64,000 bases of DNA, taken from positions 62,001 through 126,000 of the forward strand of contig JAFLSY010000002.1 of assembly GCA_022510745.1 (NCBI GenBank), given 5' to 3'. Origin of the DNA: Lachnospiraceae bacterium. GTDB taxonomy: Bacteria; Bacillota; Clostridia; Lachnospirales; Lachnospiraceae. The position numbers and the translations under genes were made by a program. The notes beneath the pieces are model-generated. The model had not been told where the DNA came from and searched no databases. It saw nothing but the letters and a program-made list of their open reading frames with translations. This document shows, in pieces, positions 34,216 to 59,157 of this stretch (position 1 is its first letter; each line of letters starts with the position of its first letter).

Positions 34216-34264
34216 GATTGTAGAAGAAATACGCCAACCCTTTTAGAAAGGCAGGGTTATTTAC

Positions 34265-35356
34265 ATGAAATTACCGGAAGAATTTGACAGTCAGCCCAGA
34301 ATGAGTCTGACCGTGGTACGTACTATCATCGGTGTCACATCATTCATGGTTGTGATCCTGATTTTAGTATTAATATTAAACAGGGACAAAAATGCAAACC
34401 CTACCCCCCAAGCCGGAACCCAGACGGAACAGACGATGGCTCAGATTCCTGATGAATCCGTGCCCTATCCGGGAATTGAAAAAGAGGATGGCCTGACCCC
34501 CGATGATTTTGATTTCTGGGATTTGTATCCGGAAGAATCGGCATCCCCTCTGCCGGAGAATACATCTGAGGAAAAAGTAGAGGAGGATCCTTCTACGGAC
34601 GGCAGACACACGCTGGTGGTGCTGCCTAACGGAGAGGAGGAGTGGGTGCTGATCAGCCCCTATCTGCCAAAGCATGAGTATGACTACACCAAACTTGTCA
34701 TGCAGTCCAATCTGATGAAGTACTATTTGGACGGCAAACTGGTATCCTATGTGGGCGTGGATATTTCCAAATATCAGGATTATATTGATTTTGTAAAGCT
34801 GAAAAAGGCCGGTGTGGATTTTGTTATGATCCGGGTGGGCGCCAGGGGCTACGGCAGCGGACAACTGGCGGTGGACGATTATTTCTCGGAGAATATTAAG
34901 CGCGCCACGGATGCCGGACTTCAGATAGGGCTTTATTTTTTCTCACAGGCGATTACAACGGATGAGGCGGTGGAAGAGGCCAATCTGGTATTAGAGAGTA
35001 TCGGAGACTATGATGTTCGCTATCCCATTGCCTTTGATATGGAATCCATTCCCAACGATACGGCCAGAATAGACAATCTGACCAGAGAGGAAAAAACCAG
35101 AATCGCACAGGCATTTTTAGATACCGTGCAGGAAGCCGGTTACATTCCCATGCTTTACGGCAATAAGGAGTGGCTGATAAAGAAGGTGGATCTATCTAAA
35201 CTGACGGACTATGATATATGGCTGTCCCAAGCCGGAGATTTACCGGACTATCCATATAGATTTACCATGTGGCAGTATAGTAATACCGCATCCATTGACG
35301 GAATAGCCGGGTATGCTAATTTAAACATCAGTTTTATAGACTATTCTGAAAAATAA
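34265..35356 (+). CDS. Membrane-anchored GH25 lysozyme
   Basis: 363 residues. A signal-anchor helix at about residues 20-41 (IIGVTSFMVVILILVLIL) is followed by an acidic, Pro/Glu-rich linker to about residue 120 and then a GH25 muramidase domain: GVDISKYQ, MIRVGARGYGSG, GLYFFSQAIT, and IAFDMES with the catalytic acids. It would cleave the MurNAc-GlcNAc bond of peptidoglycan outside the membrane. Its 3' end overlaps the minus-strand AP2-like gene by 16 bases. Confidence 0.93.
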   Translation: MKLPEEFDSQPRMSLTVVRTIIGVTSFMVVILILVLILNRDKNANPTPQAGTQTEQTMAQIPDESVPYPGIEKEDGLTPDDFDFWDLYPEESASPLPENTSEEKVEEDPSTDGRHTLVVLPNGEEEWVLISPYLPKHEYDYTKLVMQSNLMKYYLDGKLVSYVGVDISKYQDYIDFVKLKKAGVDFVMIRVGARGYGSGQLAVDDYFSENIKRATDAGLQIGLYFFSQAITTDEAVEEANLVLESIGDYDVRYPIAFDMESIPNDTARIDNLTREEKTRIAQAFLDTVQEAGYIPMLYGNKEWLIKKVDLSKLTDYDIWLSQAGDLPDYPYRFTMWQYSNTASIDGIAGYANLNISFIDYSEK

Positions 35357-36183
35357 AGTTTATAAAGTTTGTCGGAAACCGGCAGGCGGGTATAGATTTC
35401 AGCATACTCGCCTGCCGTAATATTTTCCAGATAGTTGGGTGTATAGTTTTTGGAGCAGCCGTTTTTCTTCAGAATATCGATCGCTTTATTGTATGCAATG
35501 GCAGCCTCTTCCATGGAGGCGTAAGTACCGATTAAATAATTGCCTTTTACATGGATGCGGGCCTTGTAGACGGGGCCTTTTTTTCCTTCTGTGATCAGGA
35601 CACCATGGTACTGATTGCGGATGATCAGATTTTCACGTCTGAAATCCGTAGAATCCCCATTTTTAAATACATAATCCCTGCCGGGTACGGCATAGTTCTT
35701 GATACCGAAGCGATTTAAGATATTGACCTGCATACCGAAATCAGCAACAAAATAGTGTCCGCCGCGCTTCATGATCTTATGGCTGGCAAAATAGAAAAGA
35801 TCGTCGGTATCGAATTTGAGAATATGCTCTCTGGAATAGTAATAATAAAAATATCGGGAGCGGATATAGATAGGAGTGGGAAAATACATGCCGTTTTCCC
35901 TGAAATTCAGCAGAATTACCCATTTTTCAAAGGGCAGAGCACAGGAAGCGGAATGGTCATCCAAAGCAGGGGGAATATCATTTCGTAACAAGTGATTGGC
36001 TTCCAGATAGGCCGCATGAGCCTGCTCGGGAGTAGGATAGCTGCCCAAGCTGATATGCTTGCATTTATAAGTAACGGAGGAACGGTACACGGTCCGGCCT
36101 TTTTTTTGCGTGGAAGGAAAAACACCCTCTAATTTTTTTTGCATTTTATTATCCATGACTTTCTGTAATCTGCAAACTTTCAT
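35341..36183 (-). CDS. AP2/ERF-like DNA-binding protein with degenerate HNH-like centre
   Basis: 280 residues. A C-terminal stretch (VYKARIHVKGNYLIGTYASMEEAAIAYNKA as two parts, about residues 215-250) has the three-strand-plus-helix pattern of AP2 DNA-binding domains; a second, weaker copy is near the N-terminus (VYRSSVTYKCKHISLGSYP..EQAHAAYLEA). Between them, GDSTDFRRENLIIRN resembles the end of an HNH/homing-endonuclease motif but lacks the catalytic histidines. This suggests a regulator derived from a mobile endonuclease. Start is uncertain (ATG 36183, or internal ATGs). A good promoter lies at 36291-36319 and a dispersed repeat occupies the leader. Confidence 0.72.
   Translation of the reverse strand: MKVCRLQKVMDNKMQKKLEGVFPSTQKKGRTVYRSSVTYKCKHISLGSYPTPEQAHAAYLEANHLLRNDIPPALDDHSASCALPFEKWVILLNFRENGMYFPTPIYIRSRYFYYYYSREHILKFDTDDLFYFASHKIMKRGGHYFVADFGMQVNILNRFGIKNYAVPGRDYVFKNGDSTDFRRENLIIRNQYHGVLITEGKKGPVYKARIHVKGNYLIGTYASMEEAAIAYNKAIDILKKNGCSKNYTPNYLENITAGEYAEIYTRLPVSDKLYKLYFSE
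35381..35416 (+). terminator. Hairpin behind the GH25 gene, inside the AP2-like coding region
   Basis: GGCAGGCGGGTAT (35381-35393) pairs with ATACTCGCCTGCC (35404-35416) with one mismatch, followed by GTAATATTTT. It is 25 bases past the GH25 stop and may end that transcript even though it lies in the opposite-strand gene. Confidence 0.5.
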
Positions 36184-36209
36184 GCAAATTTATTTGCATT
36201 GCGCAGGCA

Positions 36210-36261
36210 CAATATTTGCAATGACTTGCAAGCAAGTCATGTGAAAATTTATTTTTCACAC
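36210..36261 (-). repeat. Dispersed triple-hairpin repeat, copy 1
   Basis: Read on the minus strand it contains TGTGAAAA/TTTTCACA and ATGACTTGC-TT-GCAAGTCAT hairpins, then TTGCAAATATTG. It matches copy 2 (59088-59140, plus strand) at 49 of 53 aligned columns. A further GCAAAT/ATTTGC hairpin lies just beyond, at 36184-36197. It sits between the promoter and start of the AP2-like gene, so it would be in that gene's mRNA leader. Confidence 0.85.
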
Positions 36262-36290
36262 TGCACTCCTGTGAAGAATTTCTTTTCTAA

Positions 36291-40077: not shown

Positions 40078-40252
40078 AGGCAGCTCCTTTCTCCGTAAAA
40101 TAAATGATCCATAAAATAAGTGATATTTTTAATATCTTAACATGAGGAATAATTTTGTGGCAAGCTAAAACGCCGATTTCATAAACTTTTCATAAATGAT
40201 GGATTTTTTGTGGAAAGCGTATTACAATAAAACGTAAGCAAAGAATTCGGCC

Positions 40253-40280
40253 TGCAGGTCACGGAATGCAGGTTACAGAA
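40253..40280 (+). repeat. Adjacent 14-base direct repeat before deoC
   Basis: TGCAGGTCACGGAA (40253-40266) and TGCAGGTTACAGAA (40267-40280) are head-to-tail copies with two differences, ending at the deoC ribosome site. Could be a regulator site or mRNA element; otherwise incidental. The rest of 40078-40252 shows no convincing element beyond an A+T-rich region. Confidence 0.5.
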
Positions 40281-40293
40281 AGGTGAAAATAGG

Positions 40294-40971
40294 ATGAAAG
40301 TTTCGGAAATGTTAAGACATGTGGATCATACCAAGCTGCAGGCTTTCACTGCTTGGCAGGATATCGTGAAGCTCTGTGAAGAAGCGATACGCTTCCGTAC
40401 GGCTTCGGTATGTATTCCTCCCGCCTACATCCGGCGTGTACATGAGACCTACGGGGACAAGCTGAATATTTGTACCGTGGTAGGCTTTCCTTTGGGCTAC
40501 AGTGCTACGGCGGCTAAAGCCGCGGAAATAGAACAGGCACTGAAAGACGGCTGTAATGAAATTGATATGGTAATCAATATCAGCGATGTAAAAAACGGGG
40601 ATTACGACAAAGTAAAAGCCGAAATCGCTACACTGAAAAAATGTTGCGGACAGCATGTGTTAAAGGTGATCGTGGAAACCTGCTACCTGACGGAGGAAGA
40701 AAAAATAGCTATGTGCAGGGCGGTAACAGAAGCCGGTGCAGACTATATCAAGACTTCCACGGGTTTTGGTACGGGCGGCGCCACCAAAGAAGATGTGGAG
40801 TTGTTTAAAAAGCATATCGGCCCTAACGTAAAAATAAAAGCAGCGGGAGGCGTAAGCTCTCTTGACGATTTGGCTATGTTTTTGGAGCTTGGATGCGACA
40901 GGGTAGGTACCTCTAAAGCAGTTGCTCTCTGTGAGGAAATGGATCTGGAGGCAGAGTATGGAAAATATTGA
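40294..40971 (+). CDS. deoC: Deoxyribose-phosphate aldolase
   Basis: Cleaves 2-deoxyribose 5-phosphate to glyceraldehyde 3-phosphate and acetaldehyde. 225 residues; the Schiff-base lysine is in DYIKTSTGFGTGGAT near residue 152, with the HTK at residues about 11-13, the ICTVVGFPLG stretch and the second active-site lysine in VKIKAAGG. Its 3' end overlaps pepP by 14 bases. Confidence 0.95.
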   Translation: MKVSEMLRHVDHTKLQAFTAWQDIVKLCEEAIRFRTASVCIPPAYIRRVHETYGDKLNICTVVGFPLGYSATAAKAAEIEQALKDGCNEIDMVINISDVKNGDYDKVKAEIATLKKCCGQHVLKVIVETCYLTEEEKIAMCRAVTEAGADYIKTSTGFGTGGATKEDVELFKKHIGPNVKIKAAGGVSSLDDLAMFLELGCDRVGTSKAVALCEEMDLEAEYGKY

Positions 40972-42839: not shown

Positions 42840-42843
42840 AAAG

Positions 42844-43033
42844 GTAACCTGGAATGCACGATAACTCTTGTTAGTTTTGAACCTACATCTACTTTAAACG
42901 GGATTCCTATATTGTCATGTGGCTGTCAAGCCTCCACTCGAAAGAGGATTGCAGGGGAAGGCAAAAGCATGATTGCGGTCACCCACCTAGCATTGCTAGG
43001 AGTCAAAAGACAAGAGCCGGCATTTTGGGGTAC
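42844..43033 (+). ncRNA. ssrS: 6S RNA (RNA polymerase-binding regulator)
   Basis: A non-coding stretch of about 190 bases with its own strong promoter and terminator. The ends close into a 14-position stem: GTAACCTGGAATGC (42844-42857) against GCATTTTGGGGTAC (43020-43033), all but one position pairing. Inner segments such as CCTCCACTCGAAAGAGG and GCGGTCACCCACC look like those of Firmicutes 6S RNAs. The long closing stem, size and lack of an open frame fit RNA that traps housekeeping RNA polymerase. Recognition is from memory of the family, not a covariance search. Confidence 0.72.
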
Positions 43034-43041
43034 ATAAGATA

Positions 43042-45848: not shown

Positions 45849-46139
45849 GTGTAAAGGCAAAGAAGGTGTCAGTAGCCATTCATTTTCTTTCAGAGAGAGG
45901 GAGTCATCGGCTGTAAGCTTCCTTAAGTACGGTGAATGTGTGAATTTCCCACCGGAGCTGCCCTTTGAAATTTTGCGGTATCTGGTTTGCAGAACCATGA
46001 AAGAGTAGGATGGGACGTGAACGTGCGTTAAACGTAAGAGAGTCTGCTTTTGGCAGGAAATTGGGTGGTACCGCGGAGAAGTTCGTCCCTTGTGTATGTG
46101 TGCATGACTGCACTGCATATGCGAGGGATTTTTATTTTT
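45849..46139 (+). promoter_or_regulatory. T-box leader of pheST (tRNA-Phe sensing)
   Basis: A long untranslated leader with the diagnostic T-box bulge GGGTGGTACCGCGG (46070-46083). Upstream is a stem I-like part with AGAGAGAGGGAGTC and GGCTGTAAGC; the candidate specifier is TTC (about 45946-45948, in GAATTTCCC), a Phe codon matching the downstream genes. The terminator has a 12-pair stem, CCCTTGTGTATG (46086-46097) with CATATGCGAGGG (46115-46126), followed by a T-rich run. Uncharged tRNA-Phe would favour the antiterminator and expression of pheST. Confidence 0.92.
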
Positions 46140-59093: not shown

Positions 59094-59140
59094 AAAATAG
59101 ATTTTTCACATGGCTTGCTTGCAAGACATTGCAAATATTG
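59088..59140 (+). repeat. Dispersed triple-hairpin repeat, copy 2
   Basis: Starts with GTGTGA, whose TGA is the leuS stop codon, and continues with GTGAAAAATAGATTTTTCAC and ATGGCTTGC-TT-GCAAGACAT hairpins, ending TTGCAAATATTG. It matches copy 1 at 36210-36261 (minus strand) at 49 of 53 columns. Confidence 0.85.
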
Positions 59141-59157
59141 GGCCGCAGGGCTAAAGA

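Follow-up and report, generated by a model that had tools for sequence, protein, structure and literature searches.

Extent and Parts of Copy 1

In the window, the whole 64,000-nucleotide stretch of Lachnospiraceae DNA analysed here, the leader of an AP2-like gene contains a repeat that folds into successive hairpins, which raises the question of what this repeat is and how it came to lie so close to a start codon. We consider it highly probable that it is a non-autonomous mobile palindromic element, which sits in sense downstream of the native Shine-Dalgarno (SD) sequence, just before the start codon, and supplies an SD to replace the native one. As far as sequence comparison reaches, its mobility or insertion polymorphism, its placement, its orientation, its structure and the SD strength of its 3′ end are all demonstrated.

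The original prediction described this repeat together with a second copy 23 kb away, and both are real: the arms 36206–36256 and 59094–59144 are 86% complementary without gaps, and BLAST gives 91% over 58 nt with a gap, which makes the earlier count of 49 matching columns out of 53 plausible. Of the coordinates given at that time (36184–36261), the 5′ edge at 36261 is exact, but the 3′ limit falls short, as the element reaches ~36149. Its location between promoter-side sequence and the start codon was also confirmed, the native start being at 36144. Copy 1 reads on the minus strand, in the same direction as the AP2-like gene, and its 3′ end is possibly flanked by TA. The start given by the ORF finder, 36183 (280 aa), falls inside the element, and comparison with G015, the closest relative found, places the native start at 36144. 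The AP2 Pfam match of the encoded protein is weak (22.4 bits, with a cut-off of 33.3). The features of the locus, all on the minus strand, are as follows.

36266–36270, minus strand: native SD AGGAG of the AP2-like gene, now split from its start codon; CACAGGAGTG is also present at the empty site of G015
36142–36264, minus strand: covariance-model match of copy 1 (CM R1, 66.7 bits)
~36149–36261, minus strand: mobile hairpin element copy 1 (GTGTGAAAAAT...CATGGATAA), 113 nt, with boundaries from the empty site in G015
36240–36261, minus strand: hairpin H1 (GTGTGAAAAATAAATTTTCACA), from the sequence and from helix covariation across 35 copies
36222–36239, minus strand: variable hairpin H2 (TGACTTGCTTGCAAGTCA), which many family members lack
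36206–36220, minus strand: 5′ strand of helix S1 (TGCAAA) and beginning of the apical part (TATTGTGCC); the helix is supported by covariation
36182–36199, minus strand: variable apical hairpin (ATGCAAATAAATTTGCAT), from the sequence
36165–36177, minus strand: 3′ strand of helix S1 (TTTGCA) and beginning of the conserved 3′ module, from the sequence
36159–36163, minus strand: element-borne SD-like GAAAG (consensus GAAAGG), from the sequence and SD energies
36149–36259, minus strand: upstream ORF with GTG start, 36 codons, open here, its TAA 4 nt 5′ of the native start
35341–36144, minus strand: AP2-like gene with native ATG at 36144–36142, the start taken from comparison with G015

Placement between the Shine-Dalgarno Sequence and the Start Codon

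The key feature of the element, absent from the original prediction, is where it sits: nearly every copy lies in sense, 3′ of a native SD and a constant 2–3 nt before the native start codon. In the first table of copies (46 rows, 45 elements), most are directly preceded by what looks like a native SD (GGAGG or similar), the downstream gene starts 2–3 nt 3′ of the element, and the orientation is always sense. Since the covariance model had been trained on sequences ending in ATG, the placement was retested without flank information. An internal pattern, searched in three genomes, yielded 49 matches. Of 46 copies compared, nearly all had on their 3′ side either an ATG at a fixed distance or a nested copy, and 34 of the 36 left flanks that were scored contained an SD-like sequence no more than 14 nt from the element. 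When a pattern of the 3′ end without the start codon was used, 51 matches were obtained, nearly all in records titled Lachnospiraceae or one of its genera. ATG or GTG stands exactly 2 nt after GGTTATTA in about 35 of these (chance expectation, ~1.6), and about four more lead into a nested copy.

The start codon belongs to the target and not to the element, because some of the starts at this position are GTG and the downstream codon register is kept in relatives. The downstream genes are unrelated to each other and include nadE, rpoD, frr, secE, trxB, dapA, thrS and proC.

Empty Sites and Nested Copies

At the AP2-like site, G015 is empty and reads CACAGGAGTG-TA-AA-ATG, while the window is filled and reads CACAGGAGTG-CA-[GTGTGA...GGATAA]-TA-AA-ATG; the number of codons is equal in both up to a conserved G-V. 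The element is likewise absent from nadE in G015. Another pair of genomes differs at gmd, where G067 lacks the element (GGAGGTTA-AT-GTG) and G098 carries it (GGAGGTTA-[element]-GTATG). As the relatives are represented by one genome per species, mostly drafts, these empty sites are comparisons between species. A further state is seen at frr in G015 (the pyrH-frr junction, L170), where only a relic of the 3′ SD module is left of an old insertion; here, decay has spared the replacement ribosome-binding site.

Near-identical copies and nested tandem copies show that insertion has occurred repeatedly into one type of site, including the 3′ end of the element itself. A duplication of TA or A at the insertion site is possible. 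In the second subfamily, the left AA and the right AA or AG do not always match, and close pairs gave no exact boundaries there, as the orthologues are too diverged. Judged from these sequences, the repeat is a mobile insertion. The earlier suggestion of a mobilised palindrome thus gains support from the empty sites, the many near-identical copies, the nested tandem copies and the covariation described below.

Covariation of the Folded Structure

Helices H1 and S1 were evaluated in 35 diverse copies, which are related, so that the counts are not probabilities. Standard pairs occupy 92.7% of the cells in these two helices. Changes on both sides of a pair occur at 12 of 19 pairs, in 50 cells against a shuffled mean of 12.3, with none of 500 shuffles as high and the slid controls well below.

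For the pairing between the S1 loop and the 3′ strand (pseudoknot helix S2), no covariation beyond shuffles was found within the main subfamily. Across subfamilies, the two arms do co-vary (CCGGAGCG/CGCTCCGG, CCGCAG/CTGCGG, CTTGC/GCAAG, CTGTCA/TGACAG and CGCGCTGCT/AGCAGCGCG), and a cross-subfamily landmark test gave a score of 311 compared with 224.6 for shuffled partners (0 of 5000 as high; the copies are related). The apical loop of S1 therefore probably pairs with the strand just 5′ of the SD of the element, as judged across subfamilies only.

Copies in the Window, the Genome and the Family

In addition to copy 1, the window contains one truncated copy and two weaker matches, all on the plus strand.

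59088–~59143, plus strand: copy 2, a 3′-truncated relic that begins in the stop codon of the leuS-like gene and so provides its TGA
40219–40296, plus strand: probable third copy, degenerate, its end coinciding with the start codon (40294) of a DeoC/LacD-like aldolase gene (CM E = 3e-4)
34229–34267, plus strand: possible relic of the 3′ module (AGAAAGGCAGGGTTATTTACATG), its end likewise at a start codon, that of a GH25 gene (CM E = 0.036)

Two RNAs in the window exceed their Rfam gathering scores, namely a 6S RNA (42843–43035, plus strand) and a T-box leader (45851–46093, plus strand). For the element itself, no Rfam family matched at gathering or relaxed thresholds.

The search for further copies that the original prediction had proposed found the element at seven places by BLAST in its own genome (G000, 3.16 Mb, 17 contigs), with 12 covariance-model matches at E ≤ 0.01, and many dozens of matches in relatives. 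What emerged was not a pair of copies devoid of conserved pairing but a family with many members and strong compensatory changes. At E ≤ 0.001, the covariance model scores in 68 of 121 genomes of the genus sample and in 29 of 200 genomes of a family-wide sample, which holds one genome per genus for nearly all genera. Some genomes hold at least 20 near-identical copies as well as tandem arrays. Exact-pattern matches in the named collection are nearly all from Lachnospiraceae, Acetatifactor, Lachnoclostridium or Bacterium C-53. One copy lies on a contig labelled ‘Muribaculum sp.’ (L395, JAMPGV010000012.1), a label that is probably wrong. A plasmid search gave no match to the element, and a viral scan with the exact pattern found none. 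A phage origin was considered on account of one match titled ‘Bacteriophage sp.’ (L441, MT838376.1), with the element at the start of the record; this contig is unverified, carries a yidC-like bacterial gene and is not evidently phage.

Across the family, the element is ~85–130 bases long. On the element strand, the main subfamily has the consensus TAGTGTGAAAAATAAATTTTTCACA-[optional hairpin]-CGCAAATTTGTGCCTGCGG-[optional hairpin]-CCCAAATTCGCAGGTTACGGAAAGGCATGGTTATTA-NN-ATG, and the second subfamily (G065, G123 and G107) has the consensus AGATTGAAAATTAAAATTTTCAATCGCGAGATTTGTGTCCGCGCGCTGCTTGACACAAACTCGTTATGCGCAAAGAGCAGCGCGGAAATGAGGTATAA-N(N)-ATG, for which a 33-base internal pattern gave 17, 21 and 11 matches in the three genomes, respectively. 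Longer relatives of the element at four loci (L085, L092, L093 and L326) have a strong pairing of the CCGGAGCG/CGCTCCGG type immediately 5′ of GGAATGGAGG; they represent a distinct subfamily found in other genera and in G065. In G250 (L094–L099), a second hairpin unit of another kind (GAAAAATGTC...TTTTTCAACCATGAATTTATGCCTGC..GCAGGCATGGAGG), itself terminated by an SD, stands in front of many copies, which suggests the stacking of two element types.

The Element-Borne Shine-Dalgarno Sequence and the Upstream Reading Frame

Calculated SD energies have medians of −8.7 to −9.7 in the 5′ flank of the element and −10.4 to −11.2 at its 3′ end, compared with −9.6 for the genes of the window and −3.8 for random 20-mers. 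By this calculation, the 5′ flank and the 3′ end of the element are both as SD-like as ordinary genes.

An upstream ORF starts from GTG or TTG in H1, ~5 nt after the native SD. In the main subfamily, 40 of 45 copies keep the GTG frame open, compared with 17 in shuffles and with 2 and 9 for the other two frames; the copies are related, and these counts are not independent. The ORF falls into three frame classes, which end in fusion with the gene in frame, in a stop just before the ATG or in overlap with the ATG. It is also open in many copies of the second subfamily. As a general function, the upstream ORF fails in four other genera or subfamilies: since most copies in the subfamilies of G031, G339, G230 and G270 have it closed or lack its start, translation through the element would be at most a subfamily trait.

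Alternative Explanations and Proposed Mechanism

A vertically inherited cis-regulatory RNA, comparable to a riboswitch or a protein-binding leader and controlling the translation of a regulon that includes the AP2-like gene, would account for a covarying structure directly 5′ of an SD and for a leader position that is always in sense. However, the downstream genes are unrelated, presence differs at orthologous genes, with empty sites disfavouring inheritance of this kind, near-identical copies and tandem arrays occur, and Rfam holds no match, so that we regard this explanation as very unlikely. The earlier proposal of a regulatory RNA module is conceivable for a structured leader with an SD, but the unrelated downstream genes give no sign of a regulon. 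Use of the repeat by the AP2-like protein finds no support, as the family precedes dozens of other genes and the AP2-like gene of the closest relative lacks the element. The open reading frame raises another explanation, namely a translated insertion resembling the Rickettsia palindromic elements (RPEs), in which the native SD would start the upstream ORF, and this ORF would either fuse in frame to the gene or terminate at its start codon and couple the translation of both. The open GTG frame of the main subfamily, the limited ways in which the three frame classes end and the open frames of the second subfamily speak for it; the closed or startless frames of the four other subfamilies speak against it, and its C-terminal part is read in differing frames, so that there is no conserved peptide. 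We see it as possible but rather doubtful.

The remaining alternatives concern how the copies arrived. If insertion were random or weakly specific, and only copies at gene starts survived because the new SD compensated there, fixed placement would follow from selection. Selection against insertion within genes is certain, and the SD of the element does require a defined spacing to the start. On the other hand, near-identical and hence recent copies already stand at the fixed distance from the ATG, and intergenic sites away from gene starts, where a copy should be tolerable, are nearly absent from the searches that were independent of the flanks; selection could account for part of the fixed placement, while survival as the whole explanation seems conceivable but on the unlikely side. 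Mobilisation as a REP-like element by a Y1 transposase of the IS200/IS605 type (RAYT), acting on hairpins in single-stranded DNA, would fit the hairpins adjoining both ends, the lack of inverted repeats, the asymmetric orientation and the presence of Y1 genes in the genome of the window. Nevertheless, no match to Y1_Tnp (PF01797) was found in four heavy carriers, G065, G250, G339 and G031 (14–25 copies each, those of G065 near-identical; drafts 85–99% complete), which makes this explanation highly improbable. No terminal inverted repeats were found in the element, no parent transposon was found, and the fetched loci contain no autonomous longer form with a gene between the two halves.

Under the preferred explanation, that of a non-autonomous mobile element, insertion would take place in the spacer between SD and start, 2–3 nt before the native start codon. 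The inserted unit would consist of the 5′ hairpin H1, the conserved helix S1, optional extra hairpins and an SD spaced correctly for the native start. This carried SD would replace the ribosome-binding site that the insertion has split, and translation of the gene would probably be maintained, driven by the new SD. The new ribosome-binding site could then be hit again, yielding tandem nested copies. We infer that the hairpins act as signals read by the mobilising machinery, and the fixed placement would reflect the choice of target rather than selection alone. A bolder version holds that the element represents a new class that targets translation-initiation sites: as a pseudoknotted RNA/DNA module, it would insert at a constant spacing to the start codon and replace the split ribosome-binding site; sites between SD and start would perhaps be found through the RNA of the element or through the initiating ribosome. 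This version is tentative and we hold it to be unlikely. An enzyme that mobilised such an element would be either a recombinase or a reverse transcriptase, one that favours translation starts to an unusual degree.

In many gut Lachnospiraceae, housekeeping genes (rpoD, frr, nadE, secE and trxB) appear to have had their ribosome-binding sites rewired and not destroyed, by a mobile element that would persist at an essential place because it brings the repair with it. For annotation, the element leads to wrong start-codon calls, as at 36183, and probably to many.

Comparison with Known Mobile Elements

In the open-access literature, which is part of all literature, no element family located between SD and start codon was found described, and this family of hairpin elements in Lachnospiraceae is apparently undescribed. 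Bacterial MITEs such as Correia/NEMIS, RUP and ERIC are non-autonomous elements of less than 200 bp with stem-loop transcripts and possible TA ends (PMC2229807). The element resembles them in being short, in lacking a transposase gene, in its many copies and in its insertion polymorphism, but it differs by the absence of the terminal inverted repeats, shared with a parent transposon, by which MITEs are defined, by its fixed orientation and by its fixed site at gene starts. Like REP/RAYT repeats, it consists of short hairpin units spread across intergenic space; in contrast to them, it is placed between SD and start, and several carriers have no Y1 transposase match. RPEs are palindromic and mobile, and genes can gain an open in-frame stretch from them (PMC2229807, PMC10969869). 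While RPEs reside inside coding genes, the element lies upstream of native starts, with in-frame fusion in only part of the copies.

MIRU units are 40–100 bp long, interspersed and often in tandem, and their small ORFs overlap the flanking stop and start codons. In Mycobacterium tuberculosis, some of these short intergenic units reach to the start codon of the gene that follows, and their copy number is polymorphic (PMC2734929). The element, too, is a short unit scattered over gene junctions, in places as tandem copies. By description, however, it is probably unrelated to MIRU in sequence, belongs to an unrelated host, and has conserved covarying hairpins and a carried SD; it inserts between SD and start and not at overlapping stop and start codons, and its small linking ORF is open in the main subfamilies only and not in all members. 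The hosts also belong to different phyla, exact-pattern matches of the element being almost confined to records of the Lachnospiraceae type.
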